In this document: positions 4,654 to 12,388 of the stretch, piece after piece
How positions within the stretch are numbered: position 1 is the stretch's first letter
How the letters are laid out: every line of letters begins with the position of its first letter
NCBI RefSeq assembly: GCF_020682705.1
Contig: NZ_JAGTTN010000002.1
Coordinates: forward strand, 620,001-684,000
Direction: 5' to 3'
Source of the DNA: Microbacterium allomyrinae
GTDB taxonomy: Bacteria; Actinomycetota; Actinomycetes; Actinomycetales; Microbacteriaceae
DNA: 64,000 nucleotides
Position numbers and translations under genes: made by a program
Notes under the pieces: model-generated
What the model was told of the DNA's origin: nothing
The model's input: only the letters and a program-made list of their open reading frames with translations
Databases searched by the model: none

Positions 4654-5643
4654 TCAGGCCGGCCCCAGCTCCTGGAAGAGCGTCAGCTGCACGTCGGCCG
4701 GGCCGCGCAGCCGTGCGTTCACCGAACGCCACGGCGTTTCGCGTGCGGATGCCTCGACCTCGGCACCGGCCGCCGACAGGCGCGCGACCGCTCCGGCGGC
4801 GTCGTCGACTTCGAGGGCGATCCGGATGCGGTCGCTCGGAGCGTCACCGTCGGTCTCGACACGGTCGATGAACTCCACCTGCGACGGATTGGCGATCTCG
4901 AGCGTCGCGCGTCCCGCAGCAAGAATCGCGACCCGCGCGCCGCCCTCGGCCTCGTACGCCTCCGCTTGCGGCATACCGACGACATCCCGGTAGAACGCGA
5001 GGGTCTGCTCGAAGGCCGAAGCCTGCACGACTACCCGAAGCTGCCGAACCGCGCCGGTGGGCGCCGCAGAGACCTCGGCCGCGGCATCCGATGCGCGCTC
5101 GAGGAAGCGCGAGAGCGACGTACGGCCCGCGCCGTCGTGCGCCCACGCCTCGATCGCGGCAAGCACCGCGCCCGCCCAGGCAGCGCCGGCGACCTCGGCG
5201 CGCAGGCGGTCGGCGCCACCGCGCGCCAGTCGTTCCGCCGCTGCGCGGGCGATGCGGGAGCGGCGCAGCGACGCCTCGCGCTCGAATTCGGCCACGAGGC
5301 CCATCGCCGCGGCGTTCACGATGCCCAATGCAAGGCTGTCGGGCGCGAAATCGGCACCGATCGAGCGCATCTCGCCGCGGACGGCGGCCACAGCGTCCGC
5401 CGTATCGTCCCCCGCGAGGCGGCTCTCGAACAGAGCGAGGCGTTCGTCCAGCCCCGCCCAGAGAATGTCGGACTTCGATGCGAAATAGTTGAAGAAGCTG
5501 GACCGGCTGACGCCCGCTCGCTGGGTGATGTCGACGATGGACGTCGCCTCGAACCCCTGCTCGAGGAACAGCTCGCACGCCGCCTCAGCGAGGATCTCGC
5601 GCGACGACGCCTTCGGTCTGCCCACTCGGCCGGTGCTGCTCAT
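4654..5643 (-). CDS. TetR-type regulator fused to a VOC (glyoxalase/bleomycin-resistance fold) domain
   Basis: A 329-residue fusion. Residues 1-60 form a TetR DNA-binding domain with a helix-turn-helix around TSIVDITQRAGVSRSSFFNY (35-53). Residues 60-190 are the helical TetR body. Residues 200-327 are a complete VOC domain: LRVVVQASAFEQTLAFYRD, then RATLEIANP and IRIALEVDDAAGAVARLSAAG, ending in VQLTLFQ. TetR proteins normally end near residue 200, so the VOC part is a genuine extra module in one continuous frame. VOC domains bind metals or small molecules; here it may act as an additional effector sensor or sequester a drug. The gene faces away from lipBA across a 211-base gap. Its target genes are unknown. 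Confidence 0.85.
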   Translation of the reverse strand: MSSTGRVGRPKASSREILAEAACELFLEQGFEATSIVDITQRAGVSRSSFFNYFASKSDILWAGLDERLALFESRLAGDDTADAVAAVRGEMRSIGADFAPDSLALGIVNAAAMGLVAEFEREASLRRSRIARAAAERLARGGADRLRAEVAGAAWAGAVLAAIEAWAHDGAGRTSLSRFLERASDAAAEVSAAPTGAVRQLRVVVQASAFEQTLAFYRDVVGMPQAEAYEAEGGARVAILAAGRATLEIANPSQVEFIDRVETDGDAPSDRIRIALEVDDAAGAVARLSAAGAEVEASARETPWRSVNARLRGPADVQLTLFQELGPA

Positions 5644-9129: not shown

Positions 9130-9888
9130 CTACGCCGCGCGCGGCGGGTTCAGCGGGAGCCATTGGTCGAGGCGCGTCTCGAAGATGCGAGCGCCGTCGA
9201 GCGGGATGAGCGTGCGCTCCTCGATCTGCGCGCCGTAGTACGGAGCCGCATCGTCGCGGACGACGGTGCGCGCGTCGCCGCGGAACGCCAGGCCGCGACG
9301 GACGAACTCATCGAGGCCGAAGGCCTCGGGACCGGCGACCTCGACGTCTCCCAGCGGCTCACCGGCGGCAGCGCGGCCGACGGAGGTCGCGACGTCCTCT
9401 GCCGCCATGGGCTGGATGAGCGCACCCGGCAGAGTGACCGTGTCGCCGACGGTCGAGATGTCGGCGATGCTGCCGAGGAACTCGAAGAACTGGGTCGCGT
9501 GCACGAGCGAGTAGGGGATCCCGGACTCCCGGATCAGCTTCTCCTGCGCGACCTTCGCCGCGAAGTAGGGGATGCTCTGGGGTCGGTTCGTGCCGACGAT
9601 GGTGAGGGCGACGTGGTGCTTCACCCCTGCCTCGGCCTCGGCCCGCAGCAGGTTCGTGGTCGACGTGGTGAAGAACTGCAGCACGTCCTCCGGCGCGAAC
9701 GACGGCGAGTTCGACACGTCAACCACGACACCGGCTCCCGCCAGCGCCTCGGCGACGCCTTCACCGGTGAGTGTGTTCACTCCCGTGTTCGGCGAGGCGG
9801 CCACAGCCTCGTGGCCGTGCTCCGCGAGCTTCGCGACGACCTTCGAGCCGATGAGGCCGGTGCCTCCGATGACGACGATCTTTGCCAT
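9130..9888 (-). CDS. NAD(P)-binding NmrA-like epimerase/oxidoreductase
   Basis: A 252-residue Rossmann-fold protein of the atypical short-chain dehydrogenase (NmrA/NAD(P)H-binding) group. The nucleotide-binding motif GGTGLIG is at 8-14 (MAKIVVIGGTGLIGSKVV). The central HHVALTIVGTNRPQS and SLVHATQFFEF segments are typical of this family, which lacks a classical YxxxK catalytic pair. Its neighbours are an ECF41-type sigma factor and a SnoaL-like protein. ECF41 sigma factors are known to be linked to genes for carboxymuconolactone decarboxylases, oxidoreductases or epimerases, and this is the expected partner. A candidate ECF41 promoter (9939-9965) lies upstream, so it is probably the main target of that sigma factor. 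Its substrate is unknown. Confidence 0.85.
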   Translation of the reverse strand: MAKIVVIGGTGLIGSKVVAKLAEHGHEAVAASPNTGVNTLTGEGVAEALAGAGVVVDVSNSPSFAPEDVLQFFTTSTTNLLRAEAEAGVKHHVALTIVGTNRPQSIPYFAAKVAQEKLIRESGIPYSLVHATQFFEFLGSIADISTVGDTVTLPGALIQPMAAEDVATSVGRAAAGEPLGDVEVAGPEAFGLDEFVRRGLAFRGDARTVVRDDAAPYYGAQIEERTLIPLDGARIFETRLDQWLPLNPPRAA

Positions 9889-9938
9889 GTACTTGCCTTC
9901 CCATGCGGTCGGCGCCGGTGTCGACGCCCATCAGTAAT

Positions 9939-9965
9939 GACAAGGCCCGCGACGCGGATGTGACC
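9939..9965 (-). promoter_or_regulatory. candidate ECF41-type promoter for the NmrA-like gene
   Basis: On the minus strand GGTCACA (9965-9959) is followed after exactly 16 bases by TGTC (9942-9939). The ECF41 consensus as I know it is TGTCACA with CGTC about 16 bases on, so each element has one mismatch. The site lies in the 88-base gap upstream of the NmrA-like start at 9888 and shares its spacing with the site upstream of the sigma gene. This is inference from motif and context. Confidence 0.5.
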
Positions 9966-9976
9966 GATCTCGGGAA

Positions 9977-10414
9977 TCAGCCGTCGTTCCAGTGCGCGAG
10001 CTTGTCGGGATTCAGGACGGCCCACAACTCATCGATGGCACCGCCGCGCTTCGACAGGAGGACGACCGCAACGATGCGCCCGCCGGAACGGATCGCGATT
10101 ACCGGCGCGCCGTTGGCCTCGCGCCGCTCGAGCGCGGAATGCGGGTGCGCGCGGCTAAGACCGAGCAGAGCGCTCGCGACGGCGGTGCGCCCCATCCTCG
10201 TACCCGCGAGGCCGGGGACGACTCCCCCGGTATCGACAGTGAGGATCGCGCGCCGCGTCAGCATGGCGGCCACTCGCCGGGCGTCGGGCTCCGACCACGC
10301 GTCGATCAGTGCGTCCACGGCCCCCGCATGCGCGGACGTGGCGTCATGCGACGAACCTCCGAGCTCCTTCGGGGAATCGCATCGCAGCCGTCGGAGCGGG
10401 TGCCACGGGGTCAT
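9977..10414 (-). CDS. stand-alone SnoaL/NTF2-like protein resembling the ECF41 sigma C-terminal domain
   Basis: The 145-residue product looks like the extra C-terminal SnoaL-like domain of ECF41 sigma factors, without any sigma region. It has DTGGVVPG at 61-68 (comparable to the DGGGK motif) and ends in LNPDKLAHW, with NPDKL at 135-139. The preceding sigma factor ends in the equivalent MSPDKLHHV. ATG 10414 overlaps the sigma stop codon as ATGA, so the two are coupled; the first 25 residues are probably unstructured. In ECF41 factors this domain controls sigma activity, so a free copy could modulate the sigma or bind its ligand. That function is inference. Confidence 0.75.
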   Translation of the reverse strand: MTPWHPLRRLRCDSPKELGGSSHDATSAHAGAVDALIDAWSEPDARRVAAMLTRRAILTVDTGGVVPGLAGTRMGRTAVASALLGLSRAHPHSALERREANGAPVIAIRSGGRIVAVVLLSKRGGAIDELWAVLNPDKLAHWNDG

Positions 10415-11304
10415 GCTCCGGCGACCGTGACGTGGTGCAGCTTGTCGGGGCTCATGACCCACAGCAGGCGCGTGATGCCCGCGTCCGCGGAGGTGATCGC
10501 CAGCACGGTGGTGACGATCCCGTTCTCCGACAGCGTGACCGCCGGCTGTCCGTTGACCTTCACCCAACCGATCGCTTTGCCCGTCCAGAAGTGCGAAGAG
10601 AATGCTGCGACGAACTTCGCGACCCGCGCAGCGCCGGGGACGGGTATGCGTGCGGCGAGCTTGACACCGTTGCCGTCCGTATAGCTGACGACGTCGGAGG
10701 CGAGCAGCGCCTCGAGCTGCGCCACGTCGCCGCGCTGGGCGGCCGCCAGGAACGCCTCGAGAAGCCGCCTCTGCTCATTGGACGACGCGACGGCCCGGCG
10801 CTCGGACGCCAGATGTTTGCGCGCGCGGCTCACCAGCTGGCGCGCGGCCGTCGGGCTGGTCTGGACGATGTCCGCAATGCGGTCGTAAGGGTATTCGAGG
10901 GCTTCGCGCAGCACGTAGGCGGCGCGCTCTGTCGGCGTCAGCTTTTCGAGTAGCAGCAGAACCGCGTATTCGAGCGCCTCTTCGCGCTCCGCTCCGAGCG
11001 CGGGGTCGTCTTCGGTGTTTACGGGTTCAGGCAGCCACGGCCCGATATAGGTCTCACGGCGCACGCGAGCCGACTGCAGGGCATTGATCGAGAGGCGCGT
11101 GGTGACGGTGGCGAGGAAGGCAGCCGGTTCGAGGATGTCTCTGCGATCGGTGTTCTGCCATCGGATCCAGACCTCTTGGAGGATGTCCTCGGCGTCTGCG
11201 ACACTGCCGAGCATTCGGTATGCGATGCCGAACAGCCGTCGCCGCGCCTCGTGGAAAGCCACGCTCGCGTGGGCGAGATCTGTGTTCAGAGTGTCGTCCG
11301 CCAT
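10411..11304 (-). CDS. ECF41-type (SigJ-like) RNA polymerase sigma factor with SnoaL C-terminal domain
   Basis: A 297-residue ECF sigma factor with region 2 (about 14-80, AEDILQEVWIRWQ and LATVTTRLSINAL), region 4 (about 120-170, LTPTERAAYVLREALEYPYD and SPTAARQLVSRARKHL) and a C-terminal SnoaL/NTF2-like domain (about 178-297). Three ECF41 hallmarks are visible: WLPEP at 90-94 in the linker, DGNGVK at 210-215 in the DGGGK position, and SPDKL at 285-289 in the NPDKL position. ECF41 factors have no classical anti-sigma; the C-terminal domain both activates and restrains them. A matching promoter lies at 11321-11347, suggesting autoregulation. The signal sensed is unknown. Confidence 0.92.
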   Translation of the reverse strand: MADDTLNTDLAHASVAFHEARRRLFGIAYRMLGSVADAEDILQEVWIRWQNTDRRDILEPAAFLATVTTRLSINALQSARVRRETYIGPWLPEPVNTEDDPALGAEREEALEYAVLLLLEKLTPTERAAYVLREALEYPYDRIADIVQTSPTAARQLVSRARKHLASERRAVASSNEQRRLLEAFLAAAQRGDVAQLEALLASDVVSYTDGNGVKLAARIPVPGAARVAKFVAAFSSHFWTGKAIGWVKVNGQPAVTLSENGIVTTVLAITSADAGITRLLWVMSPDKLHHVTVAGA

Positions 11305-11320
11305 TTGTCCTCATCACTAC

Positions 11321-11347
11321 GACCGGACAGACCAGTGATCTGTGACA
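11321..11347 (-). promoter_or_regulatory. candidate autoregulatory ECF41 promoter
   Basis: A perfect TGTCACA (minus strand, 11347-11341) is followed after 16 bases by GGTC (11324-11321), one base from the ECF41 -10 element CGTC. It ends 17 bases before the sigma start codon. The same 16-base spacing is found upstream of the NmrA-like gene. Confidence 0.55.
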
Positions 11348-11456
11348 GCCCGACGCTAACAGGGTGAGCTTCCGCGGGAACGGCTGTGCGCTTCGGCCCC
11401 TGCACGGCGTCTCGGCCGCCAGGCCATCCCGAGGGGCGTCCGCACCTGCCACTCGT

Positions 11457-11830
11457 GGAAGCGCGTCGTGGAACGGCGTCATCGCACGCCTTCGCCAGCA
11501 CGGAGTGACCGCCATCGCCATGGCCAACCCACTGCGCAGCCTCGCCGGCGACGCGGCGTACGTCCGCGACGTCCTCGCCACCATCGACGGACCCGTCGTT
11601 CTCGTCGCGTGGCGGAGCATCCCCTCGTGCACGTCTTCGGCGACCAGGACCTCAACATCCCCGCCGCGGTGCTCCGCGCGGGCGCCGTGCGCGCCGCCTC
11701 CCGCGGCACGTACGAGATCGCGGGCGCGTCGCACGCGGTACCGGTGTCGCAGCCGGACGCCGTCGTGGCTGCGATCGCCGATGCCGGAAAGGCGTACGTG
11801 GAGAGCCGCGAGGCCGACACCGCCGCGTAG
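11457..11830 (+). pseudogene. remnant of an alpha/beta hydrolase with missing centre
   Basis: Two pieces of one hydrolase are present in different frames. The first (11457 to about 11610) reads ASWNGVIARLRQHG, then ANPLRSLAGDAAYVRDVL and IDGPVVLV, the typical lead-in to the GHSYGG nucleophile elbow, which is absent. The second (about 11622-11830) reads HVFGDQDLNIP, then EIAGASHAVPVSQPDAV, the acid loop and catalytic-histidine region of the same family. Roughly a hundred residues between them, including the nucleophile, are gone, and the N-terminal oxyanion HG motif is also not found. It lies divergent from the ECF41 sigma gene and upstream of a second truncated hydrolase. Confidence 0.75.
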
Positions 11831-11930
11831 AGACCAGTGGCGTCCCGCACCGGGTCCGGTGTGCGGGGCGCCACCCTCGCTCAGCGTTCCCTCAGCTACT
11901 CAGCGTTCCCCGCAGGAAGGACACCCGTCC

Positions 11931-12388
11931 ATGTCGCTCGATCTCCCCCTCCGCCCTATCCGCGCCGGTGAGCTCTCCGTTGCGTACTACGACACGGGCG
12001 CCCGGTCAGGCGAGCCTGTCGTGCTGCTGCACGGCTTCCCCAACGACGTGCACAGCTACGTCGACGTCATCCCGCTCCTCGTCGACGCGGGGTTCCGGGT
12101 CATCGTGCCGTCACTGCGCGGTCATGCTCAGACCCGCTTCCTGAATCCGGATGCCGTGCGCTCGGGCCAGCAGAGCGCACCCGGCGCCGATCTGATGGCC
12201 TTGATCGACGCACTCCGGCTCGAGCAGCCGGTCCTCGCCGGTTACGACTGGGGCGCACGCGCCGCGTGCGTCGTCGCAGATCCCGCACGCCGGACACCAC
12301 CTTCCTGCCGAAGCGCCGCACGCGTTCGCGGACGCGATCATCGCCGTTGCCGAGCCTCCGGTCGATGGCGGGGAACGCCCTGACTCCC
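11931..12388 (+). pseudogene. alpha/beta hydrolase (epoxide hydrolase-like) with cap and acid region deleted
   Basis: The start ATG 11931 follows GGAAGG, and the first 115 residues look intact: VVLLHGFPNDVHSYVDVIP with the oxyanion HGFP, VIVPSLRGHAQT, and nucleophile elbow AGYDWGARAACVVA, with Asp as nucleophile as in epoxide hydrolases and dehalogenases. At about 12276 the sequence jumps frame directly to a C-terminal end, HAGHHLPAEAPHAFADAI (from 12286), containing the catalytic histidine. The cap domain and acid residue, about 140 residues in normal relatives, are missing. It abuts the convergent smc stop. It is the second hydrolase in a row with an internal deletion, so both are called pseudogenes. 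Confidence 0.78.

Follow-up and report, generated by a model that had tools for sequence, protein, structure and literature searches.

A detached ECF41-type C-terminal domain encoded behind an ECF41 sigma factor of Microbacterium allomyrinae: a conserved partner and candidate regulator in trans

The 64,000-nucleotide stretch of Microbacterium allomyrinae contig NZ_JAGTTN010000002.1 analysed here (positions 620,001 to 684,000, hereafter the window) carries at 9130-11347, on the minus strand, a gene for an ECF41 sigma factor, followed by a gene for a 145-amino-acid protein and then by a NmrA-like gene. The open reading frames are those given by the original prediction, which described a sigma factor with WLPEP, DGNGVK and SPDKL motifs, coupled through ATGA to the small gene and followed by the NmrA-like gene. 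In window coordinates, with stop codons included in the genes, the features are:

10411-11304, minus strand: ECF41 sigma factor gene, 297 amino acids, with sigma2, sigma4 and its own SnoaL-like C-terminal domain
11023-11037, minus strand: codons of WLPEP, the motif of the sigma2-sigma4 linker, residues 90-94 as counted on the translation
10438-10452, minus strand: codons of SPDKL in the sigma's own domain, residues 285-289, with Ser at the position of the NPDKL Asn found in most unpaired relatives
10411-10414, minus strand: ATGA overlap of the sigma stop codon and the free-domain start codon
9977-10414, minus strand: gene for the free ECF41-type C-terminal domain, 145 amino acids, with a NTF2/SnoaL fold in the model
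9998-10012, minus strand: codons of NPDKL in the free domain, residues 135-139 of the translation
9130-9888, minus strand: NmrA-like gene, the likely target, 252 amino acids (PF05368, 41.2 bits, cut-off 27)
11321-11347, minus strand: promoter-like site TGTCACA-N16-GGTC before the sigma gene, a sequence pattern
9939-9965, minus strand: promoter-like site GGTCACA-N16-TGTC before the NmrA-like gene, a sequence pattern that recurs in relatives

The sigma factor scores above the NCBIfam cut-offs of two full-length models, TIGR02957 for SigX4 (348.4 bits, cut-off 323.25) and PRK09636 for SigJ (299 bits, cut-off 271), which we take to stand for ECF41. Its linker reads YIGPWLPEP and DGNGVK is present as well. 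The ECF41 identity first proposed from these motifs holds. The C-terminal extension matches SnoaL_2 at 21.1 bits, under the cut-off of 27, and its end motif is SPDKL, with the Asn replaced. By sequence, the closest solved relative of the sigma factor is SigJ of Mycobacterium tuberculosis (PDB 5xe7, E 3.3e-44), which is classed as ECF41 (PMC8999054).

The 145-amino-acid protein, which ends in NPDKLAHWNDG, is matched in profile searches by the C-terminal part only of the same two models (positions 163-280 of 281 of TIGR02957 and 167-290 of 293 of PRK09636, E ~3e-13 for each). Its score of ~50 bits is far under the whole-protein cut-offs of both, as expected because the sigma core is absent. It had no match in Pfam at E≤1, its BLASTP similarity to the partner sigma is weak (30% over 43 residues, E 9e-6), and phmmer against solved structures gave chance matches only (E 0.41 and 0.49). 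The NTF2-like fold is clear in an AlphaFold2 model built from 27 aligned free domains (predicted local distance difference test score 88.3). With this model, Foldseek placed SigJ (5xe7) at rank 3, with the highest query TM-score (template modelling score, 0.62) among the 50 matches listed; VIA gave SigG1 (7qh5) the top Z of 12.4, within 1 of the next rows and hence tied with them, and SigJ a Z of 10.4 over 131 residues at rank 29. Many of the top fold matches are ketosteroid isomerases and epoxide hydrolases. From the profile matches and the predicted structure, we conclude that the protein is a detached ECF41-type C-terminal domain with a predicted NTF2/SnoaL fold. The original prediction, which saw in it such a domain alone and proposed a profile search and a structural comparison as checks, was thus right as to its kind.

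Scanning the contigs of the source genome with the free protein yielded a single locus, which encodes a fused sigma. Many free domains begin with a basic tail that contains one or two tryptophans (for instance PWHP, SWLRR or SWLHRS); in the window this tail is encoded at 10370-10414, and it has low confidence in the model.

The pair of sigma factor and free domain recurs widely in the genus. The genome searches used one genome per species and scored the first 8-16 candidates per genome, so the counts for the genus and the family are minimum values. Used as a protein query, the free domain had matches in at least 160 of 295 genomes of the genus, many of them domains of fused sigmas. When the loci were read, an intact free domain was found in at least 60 of the 295 genomes and lay directly behind an ECF41 sigma in at least 56 of these 60 (57 pairs, the sigma frame being split in two of them). 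A search of the same 295 genomes with the sigma factor (E≤1e-85) separated 60 loci at 67-81% identity, in 59 genomes including the window's own, sharply from the next nine at 53-57%, and the 67-81% set was taken as the orthologues. An intact free domain lies directly downstream on the same strand at 54 of these 60 loci; among the other six, one has the free domain upstream on the other strand (G101), two have it frame-split (G183 and G090) and three have none. A search of 249 genomes of the family, with stretches taken for some matches only, added at least 12 pairs in nine other genera. The ending of the free domain has diverged in eight of these 12 (APxKL, SPxKL or a remnant), with WN following in six of the eight.

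For comparison across species we used a table of 66 pairs, from which identical free domains were dropped and in which two loci with a frame-split sigma gene (L023 and L133) were kept; three further pairs added by eye brought the set to 69. The free-domain start codon lies within a 4-base NTGA overlap with the sigma gene, the arrangement seen in the window, in 54 of the 66 pairs, and the two genes overlap by 8-14 bases in eight more. Across 39 close, non-independent species pairs, the ratio of nonsynonymous to synonymous substitution rates (dN/dS) ranges from 0.11 to 0.42 in the free domain and from 0.03 to 0.16 in the sigma factor. The free gene is therefore under purifying selection and encodes a genuine protein, whose evolution is faster than that of the partner sigma. 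Of the 66 pairs, 34-35 have a close NmrA-like gene (≥60% identity) downstream on the same strand, and 33 of these genes sit 75-123 bases behind the free gene; in the rest of the pairs the NmrA-like gene is elsewhere, is more distant in sequence or falls outside the fetched stretch. Because the NmrA-like gene is close behind in only about half of the pairs, the free domain is tied to the sigma factor and not to the target. Of the three-gene order suggested for relatives, the first two genes are thus conserved and the third only in part, and we conclude that the sigma factor and the free domain, often with a NmrA-like gene, form a conserved module.

Further free domains, not directly behind a sigma gene, occur in four genera of the family (L150 1702-2127, L151 1714-2085, L157 545-943, L158 1798-2220, L159 1841-2212 and L160 1999-2409). 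Most of them end in VWIRL....RHWNxV or similar, the NPxKL motif being gone.

The origin of the free domain was examined in a tree of 42 rows, a chosen subset of 190 C-terminal-domain rows. The free domains form one clade (support 98/88), whose sister (98/97) consists of the C-terminal domains of sigma-like second proteins found in tandem with a sigma factor, and the partners' own domains form a separate clade (100/100). A quick tree of all 190 rows, given without support values, shows the same grouping. The original prediction had called the small protein a free copy of the sigma's own C-terminal domain, whereas the tree places the free domains with the tandem paralogues and the partner domains apart. 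The 42-row tree makes such a copy improbable, with the caveat that an approximately unbiased test did not reject free and partner domains as one clade (p 0.216). Also disfavouring a copy is the ending NPxKLxxW, which is common to many free domains and other ECF41 branches.

Two tandem loci in other genera (L039/L169 and L040/L170) carry, behind an orthologous sigma, a second protein with a sigma core that is eroded in frame and a domain ending in NPDKLRxWN. Their sigma regions 2 score 27.1 and 16.2 bits (cut-off 24), compared with 41.8-48.4 in seven intact relatives, and their regions 4 score 32.8 and 26.2 bits (cut-off 25.7), compared with 38.9-42.7; three of these four scores are still above the Pfam cut-offs. 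The region-2 stretch [DE]AED[AV]VQ[ED] of six aligned intact relatives has become EAENVVDA and EAERAVDQ in the two second proteins, and WLPEP is kept. A family-wide search with the tandem second protein gave no closer tandem case, the next matches having 38-48% identity. Taken together, the trees and the eroded second proteins suggest that the free domain is probably a tandem ECF41 sigma paralogue reduced to its regulatory domain by loss of the sigma core. NPDKLRxWN proteins with graded loss of the sigma core were also seen in large-genome members of the class (L164 4171-5130, L165 4417-5205 and L167 4865-5281), as was a NPDKLRxWN domain alone (L166 4887-5297); these reductions are possibly separate events.

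The two domains of a pair differ in the Asn of the NPxKL motif. Among the 69 pairs, the Asn is present in the free domain only in 52 and in the sigma only in 10 (51 and 10 in the 66-pair table, where four pairs have it in neither domain and one in both), so that 62 of 69 pairs keep it in just one of the two domains. Unpaired fused proteins have it in 60 of 63 rows, which include the second proteins of the tandem loci L039, L040 and L068, or in 60 of 66 rows when three orphan orthologues are included. At the two tandem loci with an eroded second protein the Asn is kept on both sides. Competition of the free domain with the built-in one, as envisaged in the original prediction, would be expected to give a complementary pattern of this kind if both sought one site that allows a single holder. 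Because it reflects few independent evolutionary changes, we claim no significance for it. The stricter idea that the Asn-to-Ser change tracks pairing was rejected: the change marks a single sigma clade, with one additional loss, and the three orphan orthologues keep it.

Promoter-like sites precede both the sigma gene and the NmrA-like gene. The published ECF41 signature is TGTCACA-n16-CGTC (PMC3426412, in its accessible text), from which the sites in the window differ in having GGTC or TGTC instead of CGTC, the sigma site being one base off in the -10 element. The pattern KGTCACA-N16-BGTC occurs 11 times in the source genome, compared with three times for a reversed-pattern control. Its TGTCACA form occurs twice. 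One copy stands before the sigma gene described here; the other stands before the gene for a carboxymuconolactone decarboxylase (PF02627), behind which the genome's second ECF41 sigma is encoded. The site before the NmrA-like gene is one of nine GGTCACA forms and alone could be due to chance, but its conservation in relatives makes this less likely. Upstream of NmrA-like genes of ≥60% identity, NGTCACN-N16-NGTC is present at -57 to -84 in all 42 distinct sequences, and BGTCACA-N16-KGTC is present before 41 of the 42, with no occurrence of the reversed pattern, two of the reverse complement and an average of 0 in 50 shuffles. The latter pattern precedes 37 of 72 sigma genes (controls: 0 reversed, 13 reverse-complement, 0 in shuffles), and about half of the sigma genes have no such site within 160 bases upstream; the 13 other-strand sites plausibly belong to divergent target genes. 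Both sites fit the ECF41 signature, as originally predicted, and recur in relatives.

At the second ECF41 locus of the source genome (L176 2662-4225, contig C1), TGTCACA-N16-TGTC, the decarboxylase gene and the sigma gene stand in the textbook order; this sigma has a normal NPDKL end and no free domain behind it.

In published ECF41 sigma factors, the SnoaL domain is reported to be connected to the linker motif through the NPDKL end (PMC7730460), and partial truncation of the extension raises activity and its full removal abolishes it (PMC3426412; accessible text of both papers). We consider it on balance probable, from comparative sequence evidence, that the free domain is a dedicated regulator of its partner sigma in trans, acting as an inhibitor or a ligand switch. 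According to this model, a second ECF41 paralogue in tandem behind the sigma factor would have lost its sigma2-sigma4 core and left the free domain, which would be made together with the sigma through translational coupling and act on it in trans. The C-terminal NPDKL helix of the free domain would dock on the WLPEP linker of the partner, a site that the partner's own SPDKL domain would occupy weakly or not at all, and docking would keep the sigma away from RNA polymerase or from its promoters. Binding of a small ligand in the NTF2-like pocket of either domain, free or built-in, or of both could alter this state, and the released sigma would then activate its own operon together with the NmrA-like gene. 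As to the sign of the regulation, we considered both an inhibitor and a needed co-factor. A fuller version, in which a sigma paralogue has become the in-trans regulator of its sibling, the NPxKL Asn is kept by one partner (free or built-in, depending on the lineage) and the clamp is intermolecular, is put forward only tentatively.

Several observations weigh against regulation in trans as proposed here. Three SPxKL sigma orthologues have no free domain behind them, and in one genome (G019) the free domain and the NmrA-like gene are intact although the sigma gene in front of them has lost a large internal stretch in frame. In another (G192), whose sigma belongs to another clade, a further gene stands between the sigma and the free domain. 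Conservation of the partner's own domain remains high, at 66-77% in most paired sigmas. When the Asn state is mapped on the sigma tree, it changes twice in the sigma and five times in the free domain, so that the complementary pattern amounts to one or two independent pairs and is not significant; furthermore, the Asn is missing from both domains in six of the 69 pairs and present in both in one.

The deletion in G019 (L162 2840-3022) leaves a sigma gene of 60 codons, with the promoter site, the ATGA overlap, the free domain and the NmrA-like gene intact. This genome also carries another orthologous sigma (L218), which is intact and has no free domain.

One alternative explanation is that the free protein is a NTF2/SnoaL-fold enzyme or binding protein that shares a substrate with the NmrA-like reductase, its position behind the sigma gene reflecting co-expression. 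This would fit the many isomerases and hydrolases among the best fold matches and the 34-35 pairs in which a close NmrA-like gene follows on the same strand. It would also fit genomes in which the free domain has stayed with its NmrA-like gene and not with the usual sigma, namely G112 and G192, which keep the free domain and an 81-82% identical NmrA-like gene despite a sigma of another clade, and G019 with its broken sigma gene. However, 31-32 of the 66 pairs have no close same-strand NmrA-like gene downstream in the fetched stretch and the coupling to the sigma persists there, and most of the conserved residues of the free domain (VDxGG, NG.P and NPxKL) are also those of ECF41 sigma domains. 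We consider an enzyme or binding protein unlikely.

A positive role is a second alternative: the free domain could be a required partner that supplies the NPDKL-type domain for an active, promoter-recognising shape of the sigma. In two species, ECF41 activity is lost when the entire extension is removed (PMC3426412), and the SigJ domain is said to aid promoter recognition (PMC7730460), as far as the accessible text of these papers goes; the SPDKL change in the partner would make an NPDKL domain from outside necessary. On the other hand, the part removed in the partial truncation that raises activity would hold NPDKL, which suits an inhibitory motif better, and the sigma gene is intact in three orthologues that lack a free domain. 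A required partner seems to us improbable.

That the free gene is decaying after a sigma duplication, as a relic with no function of its own, is very unlikely: although the free domain diverges fast (27-47% identity to that of the window in 26 relatives, at loci where sigma cores are mostly 66-87% and downstream NmrA-like genes mostly 69-84% identical), is split at two and missing at three of the 60 orthologous loci, and has relatives with decayed sigma cores, its dN/dS is well below 1, the start-stop overlap is kept in most pairs and the frame is intact in at least 60 of the 295 genomes of the genus.

Regulation in trans by the free domain would set this module apart from the ECF41 systems described so far. 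Ecf41Bli and Ecf41Rsp (PMC3426412, for this and the following points in its accessible text) share with the sigma described here the fused SnoaL-like extension and the WLPEP linker, and ECF41 systems of that study share the promoter signature and an epimerase- or NmrA-type neighbour as target. The sigma in the window differs from both in ending in SPDKL. ECF41 is a large group of sigma factors. The paper that defined it, as far as its accessible text goes, names neither an obvious anti-sigma partner nor a known inducing signal, describes no partner protein and proposes that a second protein is not involved, whereas here a free domain is encoded behind the sigma. The same text mentions hypothetical genes between ECF41 and target genes, which are unidentified apart from four cupins. 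In SigJ, the C-terminal domain, which matches the model of the free protein, is fused to the sigma, in contrast to the free domain here, and the accessible parts of our sources mention no free partner.

The nearest tested analogue of the pair is, by its arrangement, SigG1-RsfG (ECF56) of Streptomyces tsukubaensis, likewise a SnoaL-type sigma with a small protein encoded downstream (PMC7730460, accessible text). RsfG is co-transcribed with SigG1, has no Pfam domain and a predicted mass of 17 kDa in its tagged form, and was shown to bind SigG1 and to act as its antagonist (PMC7730460). The analogy has limits, in that SigG1 belongs to another ECF group and lacks NPDKL. The RsfG sequence was not found behind SigX5-type sigmas in the ten genomes searched. 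ECF41 sigma factors with SnoaL-type regulation are already known; of the detached domain as a conserved partner we found no description in the accessible open-access literature searched.

Two further features of the window were noted. The module adjoins the remains of two alpha/beta-hydrolase genes (11364-12383, plus strand), which look truncated or frame-broken: in the frame at 11364-12380, residues 218-313 correspond to the beginning of PF00561 (52.8 bits), and the frame at 11468-11827 has a weak match to the end of PF12697 (17.3 bits, below the cut-off). At 4654-5643 on the minus strand, a single frame of 329 residues joins a TetR-type regulator (PF00440) to a C-terminal glyoxalase domain (PF00903).

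A regulatory domain that is free and genetically separable from its sigma factor would allow the intramolecular-clamp model of ECF41 regulation to be tested in trans by ordinary genetics. The module would also illustrate how what is left of a duplicated sigma factor can become a regulator.

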